13,068 nt of DNA, from assembly GCA_012800135.1 (NCBI GenBank), contig JAAZJV010000168.1:1-13068 (forward strand). The letters are read 5' to 3'. The stretch comes from Clostridiaceae bacterium. Its GTDB lineage: Bacteria; Bacillota; Clostridia; Saccharofermentanales; DTU023. Shown one piece after another: positions 1-12,969 of this stretch. Position numbers and translations under genes: made by a program. How positions within the stretch are numbered: position 1 is the first letter of the stretch; every line of letters begins with the position of its first letter. The notes under the pieces are model-generated. The model saw nothing but the letters and a program-made list of their open reading frames with translations. It was not told the origin of the DNA and did not search any database.

Positions 1-342
1 CGTTATAAAGCCGTCTTTTGGGGGATAGTAACCTTCGAGAGAAATCGATCCTGCCGTCGTAGGCATGTCATTAGTGTTCACGTTATCTTTTAACAGCACA
101 GGAATGCCGTGGAGCGGCCCGGTGAAACCTCCTGTTTCATGAAACGCGCGATCCAATCGATCCGCCTCATCAAGCGCATGAGGGTTCACGGTGATGATTG
201 CATTGAGTTTCGGTCCTTTTTGGTCATAAGCATCGATACGGGCAAGATAGGCTTCAACAAGTGCACGGCACGTCAACGATCCTTCACGCATCGCATCATG
301 TACATCTTTAATCGTCGTTTCCATCAGTTCAAAACGATTCAT
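1..342 (-). CDS. Amidase signature family hydrolase, N-terminal part (cut by window edge)
   Basis: Only the first 114 residues are present; the gene continues past position 1. The start is ATG at 342-340, with a purine-rich ribosome binding site (GGGGG core at 352-356) upstream. The block GPLHGIPVLLKDNV (residues 75-88) carries the Lys85 expected to be the catalytic lysine of the Ser-cisSer-Lys triad of amidase signature enzymes; the two serines lie in the missing part. The N-terminus, with AYLARIDAYD and LNAIITVNPHALDEA, reads like the peptide amidase/aryl acylamidase subgroup rather than GatA of the tRNA amidotransferase. These enzymes hydrolyse carboxylic amides to acid plus ammonia; the substrate here is unknown. 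The gene follows mmdB on the same strand after 155 bases containing a probable terminator, so it is probably a separate unit. No signal peptide is visible at the N-terminus. Confidence 0.9.
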   Translation of the reverse strand, partial: MNRFELMETTIKDVHDAMREGSLTCRALVEAYLARIDAYDQKGPKLNAIITVNPHALDEADRLDRAFHETGGFTGPLHGIPVLLKDNVNTNDMPTTAGSISLEGYYPPKDGFIT

Positions 343-497: not shown

Positions 498-1649
498 TTA
501 CGAGAAGAAGTTCATCAAAAGTCCAGCGGCAACCGCTGAGCCGATAACTCCTGCCACGTTCGGTCCCATCGCGTGCATCAGAAGGAAGTTTGAAGGATTG
601 TACTGTTGTCCCACTTTCTGAACGACACGCGCCGCCATCGGTACAGCCGATACTCCTGCCGCGCCGATCAACGGATTGATTTTTCCCTTGGAGAGCACGT
701 ACATTAACTTGCCGAGCAATACGCCTCCCGCAGTACCGATTGAGAAGGCGACCAGCCCCAGAAAAATGATTTTCAGCGTGTCAGGTCTCAGGAAGAGTTC
801 CGCCGTCGCTTTCGCTCCGACGGTCAAGCCGAGGAAAAGTGACACGATGTACATCAGGCTGTTTTCAATGGCGCTGCACAATAGCGGCACTCTGCCGGAC
901 TCTTTCAGCAAGTTGCCGAGCATCAGCATACCGATCAATGGACCTGCCGACGGAAGCAGCAAAATGGTAAAGAGCGACACAACGATCGGGAAGAGAACCT
1001 TCTCTTGCTTGCTCACAGGGCGGAGCTGTTCCATCTTGACTTTTCGTTCTTTTTCCGTCGTCAACAGCTTCATGATCGGCGGTTGTATGATCGGAACCAG
1101 CGCCATGTACGAATACGCCGCAATGGCAATTGGTCCCAAGAGGTGAGATGCCAATTTTGATGTCAGGAACAGTGCCGTCGGCCCGTCGGCGCCACCGATG
1201 ATACCAATAGAGGCAGCTTCCGGACCGGTAAATCCCAAAGCGACCGCGCCTGTAAAGGTTATAAAAATACCCAATTGCGCCGCCGCACCGAGCAGAAGAC
1301 TTTTTGGATTTGCAATCAGCGGTCCAAAATCAGTGCCACAACCGATACAAAGGAAGATTAGCGGCGGGTACAGACCTTTCTCCGTACCCTGATAAAGCAG
1401 GTTGATAAGTCCGCCCGTATTCTCCGAAGCCAATTCGGCTAGAGGTAGGTTGGCAATCATTATGCCGAACGCAATCGGAATGAGTAAATAGGGCTCATAA
1501 CCTTTGCCAATCGCGAGGTAAAGGAAGACGCACGCGATAATGATCATGATGAGATTGCCCGGTACCATCACCCCGAAAAGTTCCATATTCGGTGTGAATA
1601 GGGGACCTATTCCTGAAGCATTAATAAAATCAACGATTGCTTGCCACAT
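498..1649 (-). CDS. mmdB: Na+-translocating decarboxylase beta subunit (carboxybiotin decarboxylase, sodium pump)
   Basis: This 383-residue polytopic membrane protein of the OadB/MmdB/GcdB family decarboxylates carboxybiotin on the carrier subunit and couples this to Na+ export across the cytoplasmic membrane. The diagnostic block GGADGPT (152-158) and the C-terminal block [17 protein letters not shown] (351-367) are intact. With a constant offset of 48, the functionally important residues known from Klebsiella OadB map to Asp155, Tyr181, Asn325, Gly329, Ser334 and Arg341, so an active pump is expected. Length is normal for MmdB/GcdB. The start at 1649 is supported by an AGAGG ribosome binding site that overlaps the stop codon of mmdC (9 bases between genes). 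It is the last gene of the decarboxylase unit. The subunit is shared by methylmalonyl-CoA, glutaconyl-CoA, oxaloacetate and malonate pumps, so it does not show the substrate; mmdA does. Confidence 0.95.
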
Positions 1650-1658
1650 AGCGCACCT

Positions 1659-2066
1659 CTACTTGTATGTAACGAGAGGATCTCCGGCAGCAACTTGATC
1701 TCCCCTTGCGACTGAAACGCTTGCGATTTCGCCGTCGTGTGGCGCAGGAATCTCGTTTTCCATCTTCATCGCTTCAATCACAATCAGAGTATCTCCGGCT
1801 TTTACCTGATCACCCGGATTTACATTGATGGTGAATATCTTGCCCTGAAGCGGTGCAACGACAACTTCACCGCCTCCTGCGGAAGCGGGAGGCGGAGCAG
1901 GCGCTGCAGGAGTAGGTGCCGCCATCGGTGTCGGAGCCGGTGGCGGAGCGACCGGTAGTGCTACAGACGCAGGAGCAGCGACAGCAGCAGCGCTCCCCAT
2001 CTCTTCTACTTGTACCACGTGCTCGACTCCGTCGATCACGATTCGAAACGTTTTAATACGCGACAT
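1659..2066 (-). CDS. mmdC: Biotin carboxyl carrier subunit (gamma) of the Na+-pumping decarboxylase
   Basis: A 135-residue soluble protein that carries the carboxyl group on biotin from the carboxyltransferase MmdA to the membrane pump MmdB. Residues 1-23 form a short N-terminal segment, 25-63 are a flexible Ala/Pro-rich linker, and 66-135 are a biotinyl domain. The biotin attachment motif EAMKM is at 98-102, so Lys101 should be the biotinylated residue, 35 residues from the C-terminus as usual. Length and layout match MmdC/GcdC. A biotin protein ligase must act on it but is not encoded here. The ATG at 2066 is preceded by AAAGGA about 12 bases upstream, a rather long spacing. The linker is GC-rich and repetitive and may vary in length between strains. 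Confidence 0.95.
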   Translation of the reverse strand: MSRIKTFRIVIDGVEHVVQVEEMGSAAAVAAPASVALPVAPPPAPTPMAAPTPAAPAPPPASAGGGEVVVAPLQGKIFTINVNPGDQVKAGDTLIVIEAMKMENEIPAPHDGEIASVSVARGDQVAAGDPLVTYK

Positions 2067-2099
2067 AATTATGTAATTCCTTTCTTCTAACTCGCTTGA

Positions 2100-2507
2100 C
2101 TAGCGTGAGCGCCGGAGCGCGCTCTGAATACTCGCCTGTTCCCAACCGGAGAGCACTTGCCCTGAGCGGGCAATTTTACGTACTGACAAAGTTTGGCCGT
2201 CTTGTTCATAGGCCTTAATCGCCGCCATGATAATGGCAAGTGTGTGTGCATCTGCACGTCCTGACGTTCGTGAGGATATTGGAGGAGAAACTTCAGGAGA
2301 TGCTTCCTTTTTCAGAGTCACACCTGAGGATCCGCCGTCGGGCTTGTCTTTATCCTTTTTCTTTGATTTTCTCCCGGTAAACCATGCAGTTATGTCTACC
2401 AGATAGGAAATAGAAAGCAGGACGAAGAAGACGACCAGCATACTGAATAATGAAATCAGCAATGTATCCGTAAAAGTCAAATTATTGACATCAAATAACA
2501 GCACCAT
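2100..2507 (-). CDS. mmdD: Small membrane delta subunit of the Na+-pumping decarboxylase (OadG family)
   Basis: 135 residues. One transmembrane helix (about 16-38), then a basic and hydrophilic stretch (44-56, rich in Lys and Asp), a Ser/Pro linker, and a C-terminal helical region (LAIIMAAIKAY, 90-100, ending in Arg-rich residues). This is the layout of OadG/MmdD/GcdD, which anchors the carboxyltransferase and biotin carrier to the membrane pump. I chose ATG at 2507 because GCGGGAGGT lies 9 bases upstream; an in-frame start at 2591 would overlap mmdA and has no ribosome binding site. The gene begins 19 bases after the mmdA stop and ends 33 bases before mmdC. The sequence is divergent except for the helix and the C-terminus, as is normal for the family. 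The small epsilon subunit known from Veillonella is not seen in this unit. Confidence 0.85.
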   Translation of the reverse strand: MVLLFDVNNLTFTDTLLISLFSMLVVFFVLLSISYLVDITAWFTGRKSKKKDKDKPDGGSSGVTLKKEASPEVSPPISSRTSGRADAHTLAIIMAAIKAYEQDGQTLSVRKIARSGQVLSGWEQASIQSALRRSR

Positions 2508-2526
2508 ATTGATATAACCTCCCGCA

Positions 2527-4074
2527 TTACAAAGGAATGTTCCCATGTTTCTTGGAAACCGTGAGCACACGTTTGCCCTTGAGCGAATCAAATGATGAAA
2601 TCAACCGTTGACGCGTTTCTTCGGGAAGAATAATGTCGTCCAGATAGCCGCGTGCTGCTGCTATGTAAGGGTTCATCATTGTGTCTTCGTACTCTTTAAT
2701 CTTGGCTGCGCGCTCTTTTTCGGGATCATCCGCATCCCGAATCACTTTGCTGAAGATAATATTGGCTGCGCCGTCCGCTCCCATGACAGCAATCTCCGCA
2801 CCCGGCCAAGCAAGCACAATGTCGCCGCCCAAATGCTTGGAGCACATACCGATATACGCGCCGCCATAGGCCTTGCGTGTAATCAGTGTTACTTTCGGCA
2901 CCGTCGCTTCGCTGTATGCATAAAGCAACTTCGCACCGTGGCGGATGATACCGCCGTACTCCTGCTGTGTCCCGGGGAGATAACCGGGCACATCCACGAG
3001 CGTCAGAAGCGGAATGTTAAACGCATCGCACGTACGGATAAAGCGTGCCGCTTTATCCGAGGCATTAATGTCAAGACATCCTGCCATCACTCTCGGCTGA
3101 TTGGCGATAACCGCTACGACTTCGCCATTGAGGCGGATGTAGCCGGTGAGCATGTTCGTGGCGTAATACTCCTGATATTGAAAAAACTCGCCGCGATCGG
3201 CAATCGCCGTGATCACATCGAGCATGTTATATGGTTTGGCAGGATCGTCCGGAACAACGGTGTTGAGTTCAGGGCGCATCGCGTCGGGATCCTCATCACA
3301 TGACTGTGCATCCGGTCGTTCCATATTGTTTTGCGGCAGATAGGAAAGCAGTGTCCGTATCTGTCTAAAACAGTCCTCCTCATTTGCCGCTCGATAGTGA
3401 GCGACACCGCTAAGACTGTTGTGAGTCATCGCGCCGCCCAGCTGTTGTGACGACACTTCCTCACCCGTCACCGCCTGCACCACCTTAGGACCTGTGATGA
3501 ACATTTCACTGGTGTTGTCCACCATGAACACATAGTCCATTAGAGCCGGCGAGTATACAGCGCCGCCTGCGCATGGCCCCATGATGACGGAAATCTGGGG
3601 GATGACGCCGGACGCCTGCGTATTATTAAAGAAGATGCGTCCGTAGCCTGCTAATGCATCTACGCCTTCCTGAATGCGCGCGCCGCCGGAGTCATTAATG
3701 GCGATCATCGGCGCACCGACTTTCAGCGCTGCCTCCTGTGTACGAGCGATTTTCGCTGCGTGTTCCTCACCGAGCGATCCGCCGATGACAGTAAAATCTT
3801 GGGCGGAAACGTAGACGAGCCGTCCATTGATGGTGCCATACCCTGTGATCACCCCATCGCCCGGCGCATCCTTTTTATCCATTTCAAACTCGGTGCTGCG
3901 GTGTTTGACAAACAGACCGGTTTCCACAAAACTTCGGTCATCCAAGAGCGCATGGATACGCTCACGAGCTGTCATTTTACCGCGTTCATGCTGTCTTGCA
4001 ACGGCGCGTTCTCCGCCACCTGCAAGCAGCTTCTCTCTCAGCTCCTTAAACTTTTCTTCTTTTTCTGTAAGCAA
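2527..4074 (-). CDS. mmdA: Methylmalonyl-CoA decarboxylase alpha subunit (acyl-CoA carboxyltransferase)
   Basis: A biotin-dependent carboxyltransferase with two crotonase-like halves, about 515 residues. It moves the free carboxyl group of methylmalonyl-CoA (related enzymes also take malonyl-CoA) to biotin on MmdC. NDSGGARIQEG (127-137) and the oxyanion block GPCAGG (166-171) are in the N half; DVPGYLPGTQQEYGGIIRHG (361-380) and YGGAYIGM (403-410) are in the C half. The C-terminal KKHGNIPL matches, as I remember it, Veillonella MmdA. Glutaconyl-CoA decarboxylase alpha is longer (about 587) and quite different. I chose TTG at 4074 because GGAGG lies 8 bases before it; the ATG at 4092, which would add six residues, has no good ribosome binding site and the GGAGG would fall inside its coding region. 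It lies 202 bases after mdcA and 19 bases before mmdD. Confidence 0.93.
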   Translation of the reverse strand: MLTEKEEKFKELREKLLAGGGERAVARQHERGKMTARERIHALLDDRSFVETGLFVKHRSTEFEMDKKDAPGDGVITGYGTINGRLVYVSAQDFTVIGGSLGEEHAAKIARTQEAALKVGAPMIAINDSGGARIQEGVDALAGYGRIFFNNTQASGVIPQISVIMGPCAGGAVYSPALMDYVFMVDNTSEMFITGPKVVQAVTGEEVSSQQLGGAMTHNSLSGVAHYRAANEEDCFRQIRTLLSYLPQNNMERPDAQSCDEDPDAMRPELNTVVPDDPAKPYNMLDVITAIADRGEFFQYQEYYATNMLTGYIRLNGEVVAVIANQPRVMAGCLDINASDKAARFIRTCDAFNIPLLTLVDVPGYLPGTQQEYGGIIRHGAKLLYAYSEATVPKVTLITRKAYGGAYIGMCSKHLGGDIVLAWPGAEIAVMGADGAANIIFSKVIRDADDPEKERAAKIKEYEDTMMNPYIAAARGYLDDIILPEETRQRLISSFDSLKGKRVLTVSKKHGNIPL

Positions 4075-4100
4075 GGTTTGTCCCTCCTTCATCTACACTC

Positions 4101-4138
4101 AAATGCGAGATGTGCCTTAGCGCCACCATCCCGCATCT
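4101..4138 (-). other. Hairpin in the mdcA-mmdA intergenic leader
   Basis: On the minus strand ATGCGGGATG (4136-4127) pairs with CATCTCGCAT (4112-4103) over 10 bp with one G-U pair; two more pairs (one G-U) extend it to 12 bp, with a 14-base loop. It ends about 14 bases upstream of the GGAGG of mmdA. There is no T tract, so it is not a classical terminator. It could protect or process the mRNA, giving mdcA and mmdA different expression levels. The rest of the 202-base gap holds a 6-bp inverted repeat (CCTGAA/TTCAGG near 4160-4185) and a 7-bp one (GAACGCA/TGCGTTC, 4208-4254). Confidence 0.5.
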
Positions 4139-4276
4139 GAGGTTACTATTAATTTTCCCCTGAAACTTGAGATCCGTTCAGGCTATTTATGTTGAGTGCT
4201 TGCCGCCGAACGCATATTGCCATTTTTATTGATACTTCGGCGTTATTTGCGTTCAATTCAGCCGCAGCACAGCTTT

Positions 4277-5908
4277 CTATTTTTTAAAGACGTCCGGAAT
4301 ATCGTATAGTCCGCCGGACCATTCAACGAGATCCTCAAGCGAACGAGCAGCCAGCAAATCATGTGTAGCATCGGCAGGATCGATTCCGAGGTCATCGGGA
4401 TAAGCAATTTTGCCTTCCGCTCTCAAAGACTCAATATCCGCTAAACTCACTCTTTCACCGAGCGCTGTACCTTGTGCCACAGCAGCCAACAGGCGGGTAC
4501 GTTCGGTTTCGCTTTGAGCCATGTAGAGGTAGGCGATACCTTGCTCAGTGACAACATGCGACACGTCTTCGCCGTAGATCATGACAGGAATACCGGAAAG
4601 GCCGGCCTCTCTGCCGATTTTAACGGCATCAAGTTCGGGCACAAAGTAGTCACCGTACTTGCCTCGGCTGGAAAGCATCTGTACGACAAGCTTCCGTCCG
4701 CGGATGAGTGAATTCCCCGGGTTCGGCACCATAGCGCTCCACGCATCGGATGCATGACGGCGACCGCGCGTGTCGTGACCCATGTTCGGAGCACCGCCAA
4801 AGCCGCTGAGACGGCCCTGAACGACCGTAGATGAGTTACCCAGATAATCCATTTGCAACGTCGCGCCCAAGAAAAGATCCATCCCGTAAAGTCCAGCTAG
4901 TTGCGCCACCGCCCTGTTCGAACGAAGTACACCGTCCGATCCGATCGAGAAAATATCCCTTCGCGCCTGTGTATAGCGTTCCATGCCGAGTTCGCCGCCA
5001 AACGGATACATGCTTTCAACCCAGCCGCTTTCAATGGCCGGAATCATCGTCGGATGAGGATTCAAGACCCAGTTGGTGCAGACTTTGCCCTTAAGCCCGA
5101 GACTCTCCCCGTATGTCGGAAGCAAAAGCTCGATCGCGGCACCGTTATAACCGACACCGTGGTTCAACGAGCGAACCTGATGTTTCGCATAGATGCCCTT
5201 GATGACCATCATGCCCATCAAAATGTGCTTGTCCTTAATTTTTGCCGGATCGCGTGTGAAAAGCGGTTCCATGCCATAAGGCTCATCCGCCTGAACGACA
5301 AGATCAACCCAATCGCCCGGAATATCAACACGCGGCAGAGAACCTTCCGAAACCAATTCGTTGGCCTGAGCAATCACGATCGCATCCTTGAATGCACCGG
5401 CTTCTGCTAATACAGGGGTATCTTCCGTGCTGAAGCCCGTGTAAAGGTTGCCGTAAGAGTCTGCTTTTTCCGCGGCAATAAGGCAAACGTCGGGAATAAG
5501 GTCGACGAAGCAACGCGCGTAAAGTTCGAGATAAGTATGGATCGCACCGATTTTTATCTGTCGGTCAGCTACCATTTGCGAAATCTTCTTTGATTGTTTA
5601 CCGGAAAATGCAAAATTAATTTCTTCTGCGATACCTTTTTCAAAGATAGTCAGATGTTCATCCATCGTGACGGCCGGCATAATCATATTGAGACGGTTTA
5701 CCTTCTCAGGATCGACATTTGCCAGAGATTTAGCCAGAAAAGTTGCCTGTTTCTGATTATCGCCTTCCAATATTACATTCGCGCCGGGGGGAATCACCGT
5801 TTCAAGTACGTTGACCGCATCCTCCGTTTTGAAAACTTTATGATCTGTCCACTTAGACGCCTGCTTAAGTAAAGAGGCTTTACGCTCACGTCTCCTCTGC
5901 CAATTCAT
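4277..5908 (-). CDS. mdcA: Malonate decarboxylase alpha-type CoA/ACP transferase (MdcA/MadA family)
   Basis: 543 residues, the usual length for MdcA. In malonate decarboxylases this subunit exchanges malonate for acetate on the acyl-carrier thioester (acetyl-S-ACP + malonate to malonyl-S-ACP + acetate). Family blocks seen: LEGDNQKQATFLAKSLA (47-63), GAIHTYLELYAR (121-132), GNLYTGFSTEDTP (153-165), PRVDIPGDWVD (192-202), LNPHPTMIPAIESGWVES (282-299), GNSSTVVQGRLSGFGGAPNM (357-376) and RGRRHAS (381-387). I chose ATG at 5908 (MNWQRRRERK) because GGGAGGTA precedes it by 5 bases; an in-frame ATG at 5932 has no such site. It is first in the unit with mmdA-D-C-B. No MdcC-type carrier protein or prosthetic-group gene lies near, so it may act directly on CoA esters here. 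Homology to MdcA is clear; the substrate is inferred. Confidence 0.9.
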   Translation of the reverse strand: MNWQRRRERKASLLKQASKWTDHKVFKTEDAVNVLETVIPPGANVILEGDNQKQATFLAKSLANVDPEKVNRLNMIMPAVTMDEHLTIFEKGIAEEINFAFSGKQSKKISQMVADRQIKIGAIHTYLELYARCFVDLIPDVCLIAAEKADSYGNLYTGFSTEDTPVLAEAGAFKDAIVIAQANELVSEGSLPRVDIPGDWVDLVVQADEPYGMEPLFTRDPAKIKDKHILMGMMVIKGIYAKHQVRSLNHGVGYNGAAIELLLPTYGESLGLKGKVCTNWVLNPHPTMIPAIESGWVESMYPFGGELGMERYTQARRDIFSIGSDGVLRSNRAVAQLAGLYGMDLFLGATLQMDYLGNSSTVVQGRLSGFGGAPNMGHDTRGRRHASDAWSAMVPNPGNSLIRGRKLVVQMLSSRGKYGDYFVPELDAVKIGREAGLSGIPVMIYGEDVSHVVTEQGIAYLYMAQSETERTRLLAAVAQGTALGERVSLADIESLRAEGKIAYPDDLGIDPADATHDLLAARSLEDLVEWSGGLYDIPDVFKK

Positions 5909-6192: not shown

Positions 6193-7419
6193 TCACGTCA
6201 CGTTATTTTTGTAGAAAAGATGAAGGGATTCTTCAATAAACTGATGCCTTTTTCTTCTGTAATCCGCTCCGGCAAAATCGTTTGATGTGGCATGTGTGGC
6301 GTTAGGCACAATCCAGAGCTCTTTTTTCTCGGACGAACACGCTTCATAAAGCTGCTCACCCATCCGTAAGGGAACGAGAAAATCTCTCTCTCCATGAATA
6401 ATAAAAACAGGCACTCGTGCATGACGAACACAATCGAGAGGTGTCGGTTTATCATTCCAGACACCGGCTATCACGCCGTAGAACACCTGTGTTGCTATCA
6501 ATACGGGAAAACGGAGAAATGCCGGCAACTTGTGAAGCATCCACTTCCCTTCTTCTCGAAGAGACGTGTAACCGCAATCGGCGATGACGGCAACGACAGA
6601 ATCAGACAAATTCGGATCGCCGGCCATCTTCAGCACGTTAGATGCCCCCATGGAAACACCATCAAGCACAAATGCGTGTACCTTCTCCGATCCGTCTTCT
6701 CCGTACATTTTTGTCACGTGATCCATCCACGTACCGAGATCGTCGTAATGCTTCAGAAACAGGTCTGAATAATCGCCGCCGGTCGGCTCGTGGCCGCGAA
6801 GCGCAGGCATCAGAACTGAAAAGCCGGCGTTCAAGTATTGAAGTGCTTCCTTTGCACGACTGAGCACATGACCCTGCCACCCGTGAACAACCACGGCACA
6901 AACACCTTTGAAAGGGTTATCACTTCCATGCTCGGCAGACTCGTCCATATATTCCGATTGCGAAAATGCTGAGCAAAAAAAGTGTTCGCTCTCGTTCTTA
7001 TCGACAACGGCAGCATGTAGATCAGAATCTGCAATCTTGTGAACACGCTCGTTCTCGATTTTATCGACAGTCTCTTCATGATCTGAATGCATTAACTGAG
7101 GAAAATAAAGAGCCGCAAGTTTAATACCATCTTTTTCAATCGTATGGGATACATGGGGAAGCGCCATCAAATCGGCTCGCATTTTTTCTGCCTCATCAGG
7201 TCGATCTCTTTCAGACGCGGACATTCCTTTAATCGTGTCATTCGAACTGAAGTCACAGCATGATGATGTACGACGAAACAATTGGTAACCCATCGTGATC
7301 ACGAGCGTAAGCCATCCAACAAGAATGATGATTGCAAACGCCACTGCGAACTTTGGGAGATCCGATGAGTCCAAAGCCAATAATATCGATGCGTATTTCC
7401 AAACCATCTCGCAGTACAT
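6193..7419 (-). CDS. Membrane-anchored alpha/beta hydrolase
   Basis: 408 residues. One hydrophobic segment (about 23-46) should anchor the protein in the cytoplasmic membrane. A hydrophilic, acidic stretch (about 108-168, rich in Glu, Asp, His and Ser) precedes or interrupts the fold. The hydrolase core follows: oxyanion motif HGWQG (179-183), nucleophile elbow GVSMG (254-258) with Ser256, acid in HGERD (Asp346) and His376 in NATHA. The arrangement resembles YqkD/FrsA-like serine hydrolases of Firmicutes, of largely unknown substrate; an esterase or peptidase role is possible. The start is uncertain by four residues: ATG at 7419 has GGAG 9 bases upstream, while a second ATG four codons later has AGGAG 12 bases upstream. 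It lies 103 bases downstream of the MATE exporter on the same strand and may be co-transcribed. Confidence 0.88.
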   Translation of the reverse strand: MYCEMVWKYASILLALDSSDLPKFAVAFAIIILVGWLTLVITMGYQLFRRTSSCCDFSSNDTIKGMSASERDRPDEAEKMRADLMALPHVSHTIEKDGIKLAALYFPQLMHSDHEETVDKIENERVHKIADSDLHAAVVDKNESEHFFCSAFSQSEYMDESAEHGSDNPFKGVCAVVVHGWQGHVLSRAKEALQYLNAGFSVLMPALRGHEPTGGDYSDLFLKHYDDLGTWMDHVTKMYGEDGSEKVHAFVLDGVSMGASNVLKMAGDPNLSDSVVAVIADCGYTSLREEGKWMLHKLPAFLRFPVLIATQVFYGVIAGVWNDKPTPLDCVRHARVPVFIIHGERDFLVPLRMGEQLYEACSSEKKELWIVPNATHATSNDFAGADYRRKRHQFIEESLHLFYKNNVT

Positions 7420-7522: not shown

Positions 7523-8926
7523 TCAATGTTTGAGTTTTGGCTCGTTAAACCATTTGCCCTTGCGATAAAGAAAGAATCCGAAAAGATCGATCAGCACATT
7601 CGAAGCCAACATCGCAATCCAAATCGCTTTCTCACCTATGTTAGTGTAACGCTGAAACAGGAAAATCATCGGCAGGCGTAAGCCCCACAGTCGCCCAATC
7701 GACATCATCGCTGAGTATCTCTGATAGCCGCTGCCACTGAAAATACCGGCAAATAAATCAAAATATCCCATGAACGGCGCCATCAACACCGAGTAGATCA
7801 TGTAGTCCATCGCTAATTGCCAAACAATCCGTTCCTCGCCATACGAACTGAGATTGTAGAGAGAAAGGAGCGGACTACGTAAAATCCACTGAAGCAACGC
7901 ACCGGTGACCGATAAAACCGTTGAGATGATAAACGCGGCGCGCACAAACTTCTTTACGCGCTCTTTCTTGCCGGCACCCAGATTCTGACCGATGATCGGC
8001 GTCATTGAGCCGCCAACACCCATTGTGGCCGTCGTAAGAAAACCGTTGATGCGATTGACGGCAGCGTAAGCACTCAGGGTCGCCGTACCGTAACCTGCAA
8101 CTACTGAATTGAGCACTGTAAAGCCGATCGCCGCACTGCTCTGACCGAGTGCCGTCGGAAAACCGACGCGCATGAGTTCGAAGAATTTCCGCCATTTTAG
8201 TCGAACGCCGCGCAGCCGTACACGGACATTGTTCGCACGTGAACGTATAGCGACCAGACCAAGCAGTACTTTAACGGCTTGAGCTATCACTGTAGCCCAG
8301 GCCGCGCCGGCAATCCCCATCCCCAAACCGCGCAAGCCGAACAAAGGTTCATATTCAAAAATGAACAGCGGATCTAAAACAACATTCAAGATCGATGAAA
8401 AGACGCTGATGATCATCGTGACTTTCGTCTTACCCTGTGCGCTCAAAATAGCATAAAATGCCAAATACGCGATCTCGAAAAAGTAGCCTAGAAGTAAAAT
8501 GGACAAATAAACAGATGCTAGACTCGCTAACTCACCGGTCGCACCCATCCAACGAACAAAGGAAGGCGCAAGTGATGAGCCAAATCCGGACAGCAAAACG
8601 CCAAGGGCTAAACAAAAAAGTACGACGTGTGTCGCGTACGATTCCGCTTTCTGATGCTCATCCTGTCCTAAAAGTTGCGCAATGATGGCGGTCGCAGCAA
8701 TAGCAAGGCCAATACCCAATGATACAAATAAGTAGTGAGGAGGCCAAACAAAGCTAGTCGCAGAAAACTGAACAATCGAAAGCTGCGCTACCCACAGCCC
8801 ATCAGCCAGATTGTAAAAAGACGCGATGAGATTGTTAAACATGAGCGGAATCGAGACTGAAAACAGGACCGAATAAATCGGTCCTGCTAGAAGATCGCGA
8901 TTTAGGCGTTTGTTTCTTTCCACCAT
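7523..8926 (-). CDS. MATE-family multidrug/metabolite exporter
   Basis: 467 residues with about 12 predicted membrane helices in two related halves, as usual for MATE (NorM/DinF-like) cation- or proton-driven antiporters. Seen in the N half: the first helix with IPLMFNNLIASFYNLADGLW (26-45) and the GIAGAAWATVIAQ block; in the C half: PTALGQSSAAIGF, and GQNLGAGKKERVKK, a hallmark after helix 8. The start at 8926 is backed by AGGAG 8 bases upstream. The substrate cannot be told from sequence. It precedes the membrane hydrolase gene on the same strand. Upstream lies a non-coding region with repeats; a weak promoter-like TTGTTC, 17 bases, TAAGAT occurs within the first repeat unit (about 8950-8980). 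Confidence 0.92.
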   Translation of the reverse strand: MVERNKRLNRDLLAGPIYSVLFSVSIPLMFNNLIASFYNLADGLWVAQLSIVQFSATSFVWPPHYLFVSLGIGLAIAATAIIAQLLGQDEHQKAESYATHVVLFCLALGVLLSGFGSSLAPSFVRWMGATGELASLASVYLSILLLGYFFEIAYLAFYAILSAQGKTKVTMIISVFSSILNVVLDPLFIFEYEPLFGLRGLGMGIAGAAWATVIAQAVKVLLGLVAIRSRANNVRVRLRGVRLKWRKFFELMRVGFPTALGQSSAAIGFTVLNSVVAGYGTATLSAYAAVNRINGFLTTATMGVGGSMTPIIGQNLGAGKKERVKKFVRAAFIISTVLSVTGALLQWILRSPLLSLYNLSSYGEERIVWQLAMDYMIYSVLMAPFMGYFDLFAGIFSGSGYQRYSAMMSIGRLWGLRLPMIFLFQRYTNIGEKAIWIAMLASNVLIDLFGFFLYRKGKWFNEPKLKH

Positions 8927-10342: not shown

Positions 10343-10870
10343 ATGATTGGTAAATATATTGGGCGGTTTCTCATGCAAGGAGAAGATCCGCTGATGATTG
10401 ACGCTGAACAGTGTGCCACCGTGCGCACCGAAAACACCTTGATGCATGCGATGTTGTTGCTGACTTCTGTCGGCTATACATCCATTCCCGTTCTCGACGA
10501 TCGCTCTCAATTAGCCGGTACTATTACGATGCCGGGCATCGTAAACGGTGTTTTAGAAGACGACAATTACAACTGGGAACTTTTAAATTGCCGCAAGGTA
10601 CGCGATGTGATGCAAATCAACCCGCCGACGGTTTTTGATGACGCGAAACTGGAGGATGTGTTACGTCTGCTTATCCAATCGAATTACATCTGTGTTACCG
10701 ACAGGAAGAATCGTTTTAAAGGTATCGTTGCACGAAAACAAATTCTAAAAAGGCTAAACCGACTGGCGCACGAATTTGAGATCGCATATGACGTCACACC
10801 TGCTCATGCGACCGACCTTGCAACCTACGATTATTCGTCAATAACGATGAAAGACCTCAGGGCGATCTGA
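10343..10870 (+). CDS. cbpB: Two-CBS-domain protein, probable c-di-AMP-binding CbpB/DarB homologue
   Basis: 175 residues with two CBS domains: about 11-70 (with VGYTSIPVLDDRSQLAGTIT, 43-62) and about 86-140 (with YICVTDRKNRFKGIVARKQI). Sequence and layout resemble B. subtilis YkuL/DarB and the Listeria protein CbpB. Those proteins bind c-di-AMP and, when free of it, bind the (p)ppGpp synthetase Rel; DarB also binds pyruvate carboxylase. Here a C-terminal tail of about 30 residues (from about 143) extends beyond the usual end. The start at 10343 has an AGGGG ribosome binding site 12 bases upstream. The gene stands alone: the next gene begins 121 bases later with its own promoter. The CBS pair is certain; the c-di-AMP role is inferred from similarity, and adenine nucleotides remain possible ligands. 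Confidence 0.85.
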   Translation: MIGKYIGRFLMQGEDPLMIDAEQCATVRTENTLMHAMLLLTSVGYTSIPVLDDRSQLAGTITMPGIVNGVLEDDNYNWELLNCRKVRDVMQINPPTVFDDAKLEDVLRLLIQSNYICVTDRKNRFKGIVARKQILKRLNRLAHEFEIAYDVTPAHATDLATYDYSSITMKDLRAI

Positions 10871-10940
10871 TTTTCCAACCTTATAGAGAGTCGACGCACC
10901 GGAAGGCTTGTCATTACAGAAGAGGCCTTCATAGTGCGTA

Positions 10941-10949
10941 TGCTATAAT
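10941..10949 (+). promoter_or_regulatory. Extended -10 promoter for the aminotransferase-rfbA operon
   Basis: TGCTATAAT is a perfect extended -10 element (TGn plus TATAAT). No recognisable -35 box lies 16-18 bases upstream, as is common for extended -10 promoters. It lies 42 bases before the start codon of the aminotransferase, inside the 121-base gap after the CBS gene. Confidence 0.65.
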
Positions 10950-10991
10950 GCATCCAAATCACCCGAATACAGCTGGAGGAACGCTGATCAC

Positions 10992-12089
10992 ATGTCAATT
11001 AATGTAACCCGATCTTCCATGCCGTCCTTTGAGGCTTTTTGTGACGAGATTCGTCCGCTTTGGGAAAGTCGATGGTTGACAAATCAAGGGTTAAAGCATC
11101 AGGCGCTTGAAGAAGCGCTCAAGGCATTTCTGGACGCTCCTTATCTCACACTTTTTGTAAATGGTCATCAAGCACTCGAAGGTATCTTGCGTGCCATGGA
11201 TCTCGAAGGCGAAGTCATTACCACGCCCTTCACATACGCGTCAACAACGCACGCCATAACCCGAACAGGACTTAAACCGGTTTTTTGCGATGTGCGCCCC
11301 GACAACTTAACGCTCGACCCGGCATTGATAGAGCCTTTGATTACCGACAAAACGTGCGCCATTCTTCCCGTTCACGTCTACGGAAATCTCTGTGACGTCG
11401 ATGCAATTAAATTGATCGCTGATCGTTATCAGCTCAAAGTGATTTACGACGCCGCACATGTCTTTGGAGTTCGCAAAGGCGAAAAAAACGTTGCCGCATT
11501 TGGCGACGCCTCTATGCTGAGTTTTCACGCGACAAAAGTCTTCCACTCGATTGAAGGCGGCGCCGTCATATACCATGATCCAACGCTTGTAGACCGCCTC
11601 AACGCGGAAAAGTGTTTCGGACTGGATGACTTCGAATACTCCGGCGGCAACTCAAAAATGAACGAGTTTCAAGCGGCAATGGGATTATGCAATCTTCGGA
11701 TCATTCAAGATGAAATTAATAAACGCGCCGTCGTGGCCGAGCGCTACATGGCAAACCTTAAAGACATTGATGGACTTACTTGCTGGACGCCTGAAAAGGA
11801 CATCACGCCTAATTACGCATACTTCCCCGTCCTTTTCGATGCCGATCGCTTTGGTCTGACGCGCGATGAAGTAAGCGATCTTCTCGCGCAAGAAGACATC
11901 TACGCTCGCAAATATTTCTACCCTCTGACAAGTGCATTTCCTTGCTATGTCGGAAAAATCGATCCCGGCTACACACCGGTCGCGGAAAAGGCTGCCGCGG
12001 ACGTGCTCTGTTTGCCAATGTACGCGGATCTTGACATCCATGACATCGATCTGATCTGTGATCTGATCATCCAAGCAAAAAGGAGTTAA
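10992..12089 (+). CDS. DegT/DnrJ/EryC1-family PLP-dependent sugar aminotransferase
   Basis: 365 residues, normal for the family. These enzymes use pyridoxal phosphate and glutamate to convert a keto group on a nucleotide-linked sugar to an amino group. Lys182 in SFHATKVFH (177-185) should hold the PLP, and Asp153 in YDAAHVFG (152-159) should bind its pyridine nitrogen. Other family blocks are ESRWLTNQG (25-33), [13 protein letters not shown] (76-88), ILPVHVYGN (124-132) and [10 protein letters not shown] (222-231). The WESRWLTN opening and [14 protein letters not shown] resemble the VioA/FdtB-like group acting on dTDP-4-keto-6-deoxyglucose, which fits the rfbA gene 4 bases downstream. The exact product sugar cannot be read from sequence. 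The start at 10992 has GGAGGA 11 bases upstream. The product probably goes to a surface polysaccharide or glycan. Confidence 0.9.
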
Positions 12090-12093
12090 TTGT

Positions 12094-12969
12094 ATGAAAG
12101 GTATTATTCTGGCCGGCGGTAAGGGCACCCGCCTCTACCCCATGACAAAATGCATATCGAAGCAGTTGCTGCCCATCTACGACAAACCGTTAATTTATTA
12201 TCCGCTTTCAATCCTGCTTCTGACCGGAATTCGAGAAGTCCTGATCATCTCTACGCCGGAAGACACGCCGATGTATGAGCAGCTCCTAGGAGATGGAAAT
12301 AAGATCGGCGTTTCTATTGAATACAAAGTTCAAATGACGCCGCGCGGTCTGGCAGACGCGTTCATCGTCGGCGAGGATTTCATTGGTGACGACAACGTCT
12401 GTCTCATTCTCGGCGACAATGTCTTCTTCGGTCAGAACCTCTCGGCCACCCTTTGGAAAGCCGCGGAAAGGACAAAAGGCGCTACCATTTTCGGCTATCC
12501 TGTGAAAAACGCGCAGGCATTCGGCGTCGTCGAATTCGACGATCAAGGCAGGGTGCTTTCGATTGAGGAAAAGCCGGAACACCCGAAATCCAATTACGCC
12601 GTTCCCGGCCTCTACTTTTATGACAACCGTGTCGTCGATATCGCCAAGAACGTCAAACCGTCTGCGCGCGGCGAGATTGAAATCACGTCGGTTAATAACG
12701 CTTATCTTGAGATGGGCGAGTTACACGTCGAACTGCTTGGGCGCGGTATCGCGTGGTTAGATACGGGTTCGCCGGACGGCCTCCTGAAAGCGGCCGAATT
12801 CGTCGAAGCGATACAGTCGAGGCAGGGATTTTATATATCCTGTATTGAAGAAATTGCATGGCGCCGCGATTTCATTACGACAGAAGAACTCCTCTCCATC
12901 GGCGAAGAGCTGAAAATGACAGAATACGGCAAGTATCTTATCGACCTTGCAAAGACAGACCAGCGATAA
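12094..12969 (+). CDS. rfbA: Glucose-1-phosphate thymidylyltransferase
   Basis: 291 residues, standard for RfbA/RmlA. It makes dTDP-glucose from glucose-1-phosphate and dTTP, the first step to dTDP-rhamnose and other dTDP-deoxysugars, in the cytoplasm. Seen: nucleotide-binding loop [12 protein letters not shown] (8-19), [11 protein letters not shown] (22-32), LGDN (106-109) with Asp108 and WLDTG (221-225) with Asp223 as the expected metal ligands, and EEKP (158-161). Two blocks vary slightly from the usual form: [12 protein letters not shown] (79-90) and [10 protein letters not shown] (196-205). The ATG at 12094 has AAGGAG 8 bases upstream, overlapping the end of the aminotransferase gene (4-base gap), so the two are an operon. 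Later pathway genes (rfbB, rfbC, rfbD) are not in the window, and a terminator follows. Confidence 0.96.

Follow-up and report, generated by a model that had tools for sequence, protein, structure and literature searches.

The stretch of DNA analysed here (the window, 13,068 nucleotides) is one entire contig, C346 (JAAZJV010000168.1), from an uncultured digester organism, Clostridiaceae bacterium, whose genome (GCA_012800135.1) measures 1.65 Mb, is spread over 348 contigs and is 84% complete. The minus strand of the window carries mdcA, a gene for an MdcA-type transferase, followed by genes for a single-chain carboxyltransferase and a biotin-dependent decarboxylase, which together probably make up a malonate decarboxylase working without a carrier protein. 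The features concerned are the following.

4277..5908, minus strand: mdcA, proposed malonate:acetyl-CoA CoA transferase (543 aa; TIGR01110, PF16957)
2527..4092, minus strand: mmdA, single-chain carboxyltransferase proposed to move the malonyl-CoA carboxyl group to biotin (521 aa; PF01039, 652 bits)
2100..2495, minus strand: oadG/mmdD-like small membrane subunit (131 aa; PF04277 OAD_gamma, 41 bits, above the cut-off)
1659..2066, minus strand: mmdC, biotin carrier with the biotinylation motif EAMKME (135 aa; PF00364, 72 bits)
498..1649, minus strand: mmdB, carboxybiotin decarboxylase and predicted Na+ channel subunit (383 aa; PF03977, 526 bits; TIGR01109)
1..342, minus strand: 5' part (114 codons) of an amidase-signature gene, proposed malonamate amidase (PF01425, 74 bits), cut by the contig end

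Open reading frames and profile matches confirmed that the five genes lie in order on one strand, as an earlier note on this DNA had stated, and that the carboxyltransferase is of the MmdA type and a single chain. The full minus-strand order is a MATE gene, an alpha/beta-hydrolase-like gene, mdcA, mmdA, the oadG/mmdD-like gene, mmdC, mmdB and the truncated amidase gene, the last of which was absent from the gene list of the earlier note. A ribosome-binding-like gggaggt lies just 5' of the mdcA ATG at 5908, and mdcA-mmdADCB would form one operon; a scan for promoters and terminators was uninformative (14 found against 9.0 expected, and 8 against 7.4). Among the NCBIfam models, MdcA narrowly passed TIGR01110 (797 bits, cut-off 789), against 959 bits for a carrier-type MdcA of the same phylum (L195), and its sole PDB matches were the MdcA chains 6mpr and 5vit. 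The best model of MmdA was TIGR01117 (mmdA), at 847 bits and under the cut-off of 999, and its nearest solved structures were propionyl-CoA carboxylase beta chains and transcarboxylase 12S. MmdB passed TIGR01109 (490, cut-off 191) and did not reach TIGR03136 (185, cut-off 597), which is specific to the Malonomonas rubra-type malonate decarboxylase (MAD), while the gamma and delta subunits scored under the methylmalonyl-CoA family cut-offs (95 vs 200 and 19 vs 150). The EAMKME motif was present in all 36 MmdC proteins listed.

The arrangement was surveyed at the best 80 of 184 places encoding an MdcA relative, on genome contigs, a sample in which distant window-type loci may be missed. Locus types were assigned by gene order; genes were called homology-first, with tblastn for unlabelled oadG and mmdB. 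Window-type loci made up 41 of the 80; the other 39 were classical, and the product of their downstream gene (MdcD-type) resembles MmdA only weakly. In 40 of the 41 window-type loci mmdA adjoins mdcA, and the contig of the 41st (L036) ends first; the complete ordered five-gene set was found in 32, and 8 are cut by a contig end. tblastn added oadG in four loci lacking its label, and an oadG homologue follows mmdA in most relatives. The hosts are the window's kin, Erysipelotrichaceae/Solobacterium, Angelakisella, Ruthenibacterium, Lachnospiraceae, two Hungatella species and one Spirochaetaceae metagenome-assembled genome (MAG). Because the gene order is kept across several families, the arrangement is more than chance. 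MdcA identity to the window protein in the best 80 loci was at least 62% for the window type and at most 59% for the classical type, with one of each at 60%. The closest MdcA proteins of named records among the loci surveyed came from "Clostridiaceae bacterium" MAGs (96%), with Mageeibacillus sp. UBA5439 further off (69%), so that the Negativicutes setting expected by the earlier note was not borne out.

Across the own genome and its relatives, true mdcA was found in 13 of 59 genomes (11 of the 14 genus members and 2 of a sister genus), and mmdA adjoins it in all 13 of these family genomes. The operon is missing from 3 of the 14 genus members and from 24 of the 37 family genomes searched. A phylum sample of 398 genomes yielded, besides the own genome, true mdcA in 5 of 397; all five have a carrier gene and fall outside the window type, and the 23 further mdcA matches were weak or partial.

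The two malonate decarboxylase systems that PMC5534430 describes both depend on a carrier protein. We searched the mdcA loci for this carrier by homology with three MdcC sequences; a strict carrier motif was too narrow and overlooked 16 of 39 carriers later recovered by homology. MdcC was present at all 39 classical loci and at all five further carrier-type loci (L195-L199), whereas the same search found it at none of the 45 window-type loci. In the window itself no gene was recognised as coding for a carrier, in agreement with the earlier note, and the own 84%-complete genome gave no match to the acyl carrier protein (ACP) family. An ACP-family (PF06857) match occurred in 20 of the 46 window-type genomes and in none of the remaining 26, the own genome included; several of the 46 are incomplete, and a completeness figure is lacking for 33. 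The 26 ACP-family open reading frames of these genomes were all matched to CitD of citrate lyase, and 8 gave a weak match to the malonate carrier model as well (best E 7e-5); most CitD stretches read hold citE/citF-like neighbours by eye. CitG was found in 23 of the 46 genomes, the own genome having a CitX-CitG fusion, and 22 of the 46 had neither an ACP-family nor a CitG match, including the complete 6.9 Mb Hungatella hathewayi chromosome. A hidden MdcC elsewhere was considered and rejected, as no candidate appeared in the 46 genomes, several of them incomplete, apart from the CitD proteins. The carrier and cofactor genes that the earlier note had named as speaking against a carrier-free cycle were thus found in part: CitX-CitG is present in the own genome and CitD in close kin, both of the citrate-lyase type.

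The carboxyltransferase also differs in build. No two-chain MdcD-MdcE was seen at the locus, where the 521-aa MmdA adjoins mdcA (no genome-wide MdcD/E search was made), nor was a two-chain MadC/MadD. At the carrier-type loci L195-L199 of the same phylum, MdcA and the carrier are accompanied by an MdcD-type chain; an OadB-family gene is present as well, although one of the genomes has it on another contig. The OadB-family subunits of L195 and L196 are weakly like that of the window (144-157 bits), the malonate-type model being the best match for the one of L195. At L197 and L198 the carrier is paired with an OadB subunit nearer the window's (407 bits), and L197 also has a short biotin carrier.

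The study of the Pseudomonas aeruginosa MdcA names ten residues of the malonate, oxyanion and diphosphate sites, together with several that contact MdcC and MdcE; F424A broke the complex, and E466A, I490A and R521A singly did not (PMC5534430). All ten active-site positions were kept in 45 window-type MdcA proteins, position 261 being I, V or L and three cells being gaps. The MdcC contacts F424, E466 and I490 behaved differently. F424 was lost in 45 of 45 window-type proteins, F or Y in 39 of 39 classical ones and F in all five of L195-L199. At 466, the window type had Q in 45 of 45, whereas E occurred in 37 of 39 classical proteins and 4 of 5 of L195-L199; at 490, G was found in 41 of 45, V in 38 of 39 and Y in 5 of 5, respectively. 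The MdcE-contact R500 varied in every group. Six of the 543 positions were fixed differently between window-type and classical proteins, and two of them are among the four named MdcC contacts (hypergeometric 0.0006, a descriptive value given the related sequences). A quick tree was built from 67 MdcA proteins: 46 of the window type, 20 of the 39 classical ones and that of P. aeruginosa. In it the window-type proteins grouped as a single clade (SH-aLRT 99), whose long stem arises within classical MdcA. The transferase thus appears to have retained its malonate chemistry and lost its carrier dock. Exchange of CoA between acetyl-CoA and malonate is the reaction of malonate CoA-transferase (EC 2.8.3.3), and the residue pattern is what suggests this activity for MdcA. 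Just outside the clade stands the carrier-type MdcA of L058 (Candidatus Enterocloster faecavium), in which F424 is kept and position 466 is already Gln; it is possibly an intermediate.

Genes near the operon were examined for the substrate. The genes for MadL and MadM, the subunits of the malonate/Na+ symporter, lie within two genes of mdcA at six loci (L029, L030, L032, L034, L042, and L043); at L030 both products passed Pfam, MadM passed the NCBI cut-off and MadL fell narrowly below it. MadM was found in 12 of the 46 window-type genomes, mostly Erysipelotrichaceae, and in 0 of 34 relatives without mdcA, a weak control drawn from the window's order and not from Erysipelotrichaceae. At other loci the transport protein is of the AEC family or, in Hungatella and Ruthenibacterium, of the Na+:sulfate-symporter type, and biotin ligase and BioY genes lie near the operon in several loci. 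The motif A(Y/F)GGAYIGMCSK was present in 41 of 45 window-type MmdA proteins, and its Ile matches the Streptomyces PccB chain 1xnw, which we take to be the D422I mutant with gained acetyl-CoA activity. Because the propionyl-CoA carboxylase chain 1vrg has the same Ile, this residue is only suggestive as a specificity hint.

The GADGPT motif, in which we assume the Na+-binding Asp203 of the OAD beta subunit to lie, was present in all 31 MmdB proteins longer than 300 aa. In that subunit Asp203 and Ser382 bind Na+ (PMC7274780). F-ATPase genes follow the operon in six loci (L026, L029, L030, L032, L042, and L043), and the c-subunit of L030 has Glu in both helices. A rotor fragment of the own V/A-type ATPase reads PGTQG...VMVETYAI, presumably the Na+ signature of Enterococcus hirae NtpK. 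Na+ is probably the coupling ion.

We put at roughly 0.8 the probability that the operon encodes a carrier-free, biotin-dependent, Na+-pumping malonate decarboxylase acting on free CoA esters. MdcA would transfer CoA from acetyl-CoA to malonate, giving malonyl-CoA and acetate; MmdA would pass the carboxyl group of malonyl-CoA to the biotin of MmdC and regenerate acetyl-CoA; and MmdB, held by the OadG-like subunit, would release CO2 and export Na+. The net reaction would convert malonate to acetate and CO2 with formation of a Na+ gradient, usable by a Na+-type ATPase. The ACP-free malonate cycle offered by the earlier note as a possibility is supported by the absent carrier, the assignment of all ACP matches to CitD, the lack of methylmalonyl-CoA mutase in 45 of 46 genomes, MadLM genes near mdcA in six loci and the loss of MdcC-interface residues from a protein that keeps its malonate site. 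The reading builds on gene content, its conservation, the carrier's absence and the residue pattern, and from these we infer every catalytic step, the use of Na+ and the pyrimidine source discussed below.

Several observations weigh against it. MmdA, MmdC and MmdD score below the methylmalonyl-CoA cut-offs and MmdB below the malonate one, so the family names do not give the substrate. One locus, L035 of an Angelakisella MAG, has mdcA, mmdA and mmdC without mmdB and oadG despite sequence to spare; tblastn found neither in the 2.2 kb after mmdA, which reflects an assembly fault or a real loss. The order of the proposed five-gene operon is conserved, but mdcA and mmdA stand 184 bp apart in the window and 171 and 176 bp apart in the two closest kin, compared with 6-36 bp in 28 of 41 other loci measured; in the other 13 the gap ranges from -158 to 501, partly owing to start-codon calls. 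The contact R521 is not discriminating, being kept in 11 of 45 window-type and 37 of 39 classical proteins and in 0 of 5 of L195-L199. The window-type proteins share one origin, so the residue and other counts are not independent events. MadM was found in none of the window's family, which does have a citrate-lyase carrier system; the window genome is incomplete, and absences there lean on relatives. Finally, most window-type genomes are without AccC, so that malonyl-CoA might have a biosynthetic role.

Three other roles for the operon were weighed. The earlier note had named succinate as an alternative, in which MdcA would swap CoA between propionyl-CoA and succinate or methylmalonate and MmdADCB would act on methylmalonyl-CoA as in Veillonella and Propionigenium. 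The mmdA model and the propionyl-CoA carboxylase structures that come nearest to MmdA fit this route, yet we consider it highly improbable. A search for methylmalonyl-CoA mutase came up empty in 45 of the 46 window-type genomes, the own one included, which argues against this route, and in the exception (G079; L135, contig C185) the mutase lies beside a separate biotin carrier and an OadB-family gene. Moreover, the malonate-site residues of MdcA are unchanged, malonate symporter genes lie near the operon in six relatives and MmdA is under the mmdA cut-off. Succinate and methylmalonate were set aside as main substrates because of the missing mutase. G079 also carries the mdcA-mmd operon and apparently has two Na+ decarboxylases in one cell.

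A transferase that still depends on a carrier and borrows CitD from citrate lyase would agree with the CitD-type ACP and CitG genes counted above, with the own CitX-CitG and with the weak malonate-carrier matches of 8 CitD proteins. We give it a very slim chance, as the docking residues for MdcC are lost, most CitD genes read stand beside citE/citF-like genes and nearly half of the genomes (22 of 46), with the H. hathewayi chromosome among them, have neither gene. The operon might instead feed malonyl-CoA to fatty acid synthesis in cells without acetyl-CoA carboxylase, either through MdcA from malonate or by Mmd running in reverse on the Na+ gradient. AccC scored above the cut-off in just 4 of 46 window-type genomes, the best matches of the own family being below 40 bits, and a 1984 title, seen as an entry in a reference list, speaks of acetyl-CoA carboxylated by reversal of methylmalonyl-CoA decarboxylase. 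This role nevertheless seems quite improbable: the operon is accessory, being missing from the genus and family members given above, and no fatty-acid gene was among the identified neighbours, many neighbours being unannotated. The carrier-free malonate decarboxylase remains the preferred reading.

The source of malonate would differ between branches of the clade. The Erysipelotrichaceae branch would import it through MadLM or other carriers, whereas the window's family would probably obtain it from uracil taken up by a permease. The operon is accompanied there, as it is in Lachnospiraceae, by genes for an amidase, AllF/AllG, a cyclase, a molybdenum hydroxylase (Mo-hydroxylase) and a uracil-type permease. 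Two adjoining stretches of the relative G002 (36 kb) hold the cyclase, AllG, AllF, AllH, PucR, a three-subunit xanthine-dehydrogenase-type Mo-hydroxylase, BioY, BirA, the amidase and mmdB-C-D-A-mdcA. The Lachnospiraceae genome G090 has mdcA-mmdA-D-C-B, the amidase, AllF, AllG, the cyclase, three Mo-hydroxylase subunits and a uracil-type permease, with no AllH labelled in the cluster. As the order differs between the two, this is linkage and not a single inherited block. The operon and the All set are on separate contigs in the own genome and its closest kin (G005, G011); a 4-kb contig of the own genome (C81) holds the cyclase, AllG, AllF and part of AllH. AllG was present in 13 of 13 family genomes with mdcA compared with 1 of 19 tested among the 24 without it (Fisher p = 4e-8, kinship uncorrected). 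The exception, G019 (L168), has AllFG and no cyclase or Mo-hydroxylase in the 15.6 kb fetched.

Close kin (L017) and Lachnospiraceae loci have the amidase gene in full length beside mmdB, and the GGSSGG motif was present in 3 of 3 full-length copies checked. The cyclase (PF04199) had the metal motif HVGTHLDGPxHF in 3 of 3 checked, with weak PDB relatives among kynurenine formamidases and metal-dependent hydrolases. The two permeases tested scored 231-241 bits against uracil permease, their closest match, and 45-61 bits against urate/xanthine permease. Carbamate kinase was above the cut-off in 16 of the 18 genomes searched with mdcA and AllG (not in G012 and G087) and also occurs in many relatives without the operon. 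The amidase is nearest to peptide amidase by sequence search against structures, and the Mo-hydroxylase is nearest to xanthine dehydrogenase models, below the cut-off, its Mo subunit being nearest in the PDB to 4-hydroxybenzoyl-CoA reductase; the substrates therefore cannot be read from these matches. Taken as chemistry, the set would fit, gene by gene, a route in which the Mo-hydroxylase converts uracil to barbiturate, a cyclase-type ring opening gives ureidomalonate, AllFGH splits this into malonamate and carbamoyl phosphate, carbamate kinase makes ATP, and the amidase releases malonate from malonamate. A uracil-permease-like gene also lies directly 5' of mdcA-mmdA in the sole Spirochaetota locus (L053, Spirochaetaceae MAG, 1-840), a third pyrimidine hint.

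The linked set might instead serve purine/oxalurate or another ureide, its linkage to the malonate operon being non-metabolic. E. coli AllFGH is an oxamic transcarbamylase acting on oxalurate (PMC11326118), and the text of that source that was available makes no mention of malon-, barbitur-, uracil, clostridi- or cyclase. The Mo-hydroxylase matches and the regulator PucR, named for purine catabolism, point the same way. We regard this explanation as unlikely, as both permeases tested are of the uracil type, the linkage recurs in two lineages with different gene orders, the AllFG locus of the family member without mdcA shows no cyclase or Mo-hydroxylase, and only a C3 ureide leads to malonate. 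A link of the operon to anaerobic pyrimidine breakdown is plausible, and we see about an even chance that the operon forms the last, energy-conserving part of an as yet undescribed fermentation of uracil to acetate by anaerobes. Such a fermentation would gain ATP by way of carbamoyl phosphate, and the carrier-free malonyl-CoA decarboxylase would add a Na+ gradient; a second branch of the clade would live on imported malonate.

The remaining features of the window are listed below.

6193-7419, minus strand: alpha/beta-hydrolase-like gene, with an N-terminal hydrophobic stretch by eye
7523-8926, minus strand: MATE exporter gene, upstream of mdcA
10343-12969, plus strand: CBS-domain gene, sugar aminotransferase gene (DesI-like) and rmlA, divergent from the operon

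The first two genes recur 5' of mdcA in genus members with long enough contigs, and other families are without them. The plus-strand set consists of surface-sugar genes and apparently has no relation to the operon.

Among the papers listed by searches of the openly available literature, none was seen to describe this mdcA-mmdADCB arrangement. If our reading is correct, the operon would be a third and simpler malonate decarboxylase design, in which a carrier transferase was rewired to free CoA and the loss of its docking surface can be seen in the sequence. Anaerobes have reportedly been grown on malonate via malonyl-CoA, and the operon would supply candidate genes for this growth. Cultured Hungatella hathewayi (DSM 13479, locus L047) would then be a ready test organism. 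The linked set would also suggest a possible route of anaerobic pyrimidine breakdown in digesters and the gut.

Compared with known systems, the window shares with MAD a biotin carrier (PF00364), an OadB-family decarboxylase subunit (PF03977) and the overall reaction, and the MdcA homologue there is presumably MadA. The MAD carboxyltransferase has two chains, whereas the window MmdA is one chain. MAD uses an ACP, according to PMC5534430 and PMC7274780, whereas the window system is without a carrier. With classical malonate decarboxylase (mdcABCDEGH) it shares an MdcA that is 57-60% identical in the surveyed loci and has the same malonate pocket; the classical enzyme has a carrier and the two-chain MdcD/MdcE, and the window has a membrane Na+-type decarboxylase instead. 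The Na+ methylmalonyl-CoA decarboxylase of Veillonella and Propionigenium has the same subunit plan, MmdA-D-C-B, with alpha, beta, gamma and delta all found here, but the window set is linked to MdcA, its alpha, gamma and delta subunits are under the cut-offs and mutase is missing from nearly all of its host genomes. E. coli AllFGH is matched in the relatives' cluster by AllF and AllG, plus AllH homologues in the own family, whereas the proposed substrate, ureidomalonate, is one carbon longer and the Lachnospiraceae cluster has no gene labelled AllH. In the aerobic oxidative pyrimidine pathway, uracil is converted through barbiturate and ureidomalonate to malonate and urea, with ring opening by the barbiturase/AtzD family. 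The proposed route would share these intermediates to malonate and differ in that the carbamoyl group would go to phosphate with a gain of ATP, malonate would go to a Na+ pump and the ring would be opened by a PF04199 protein.

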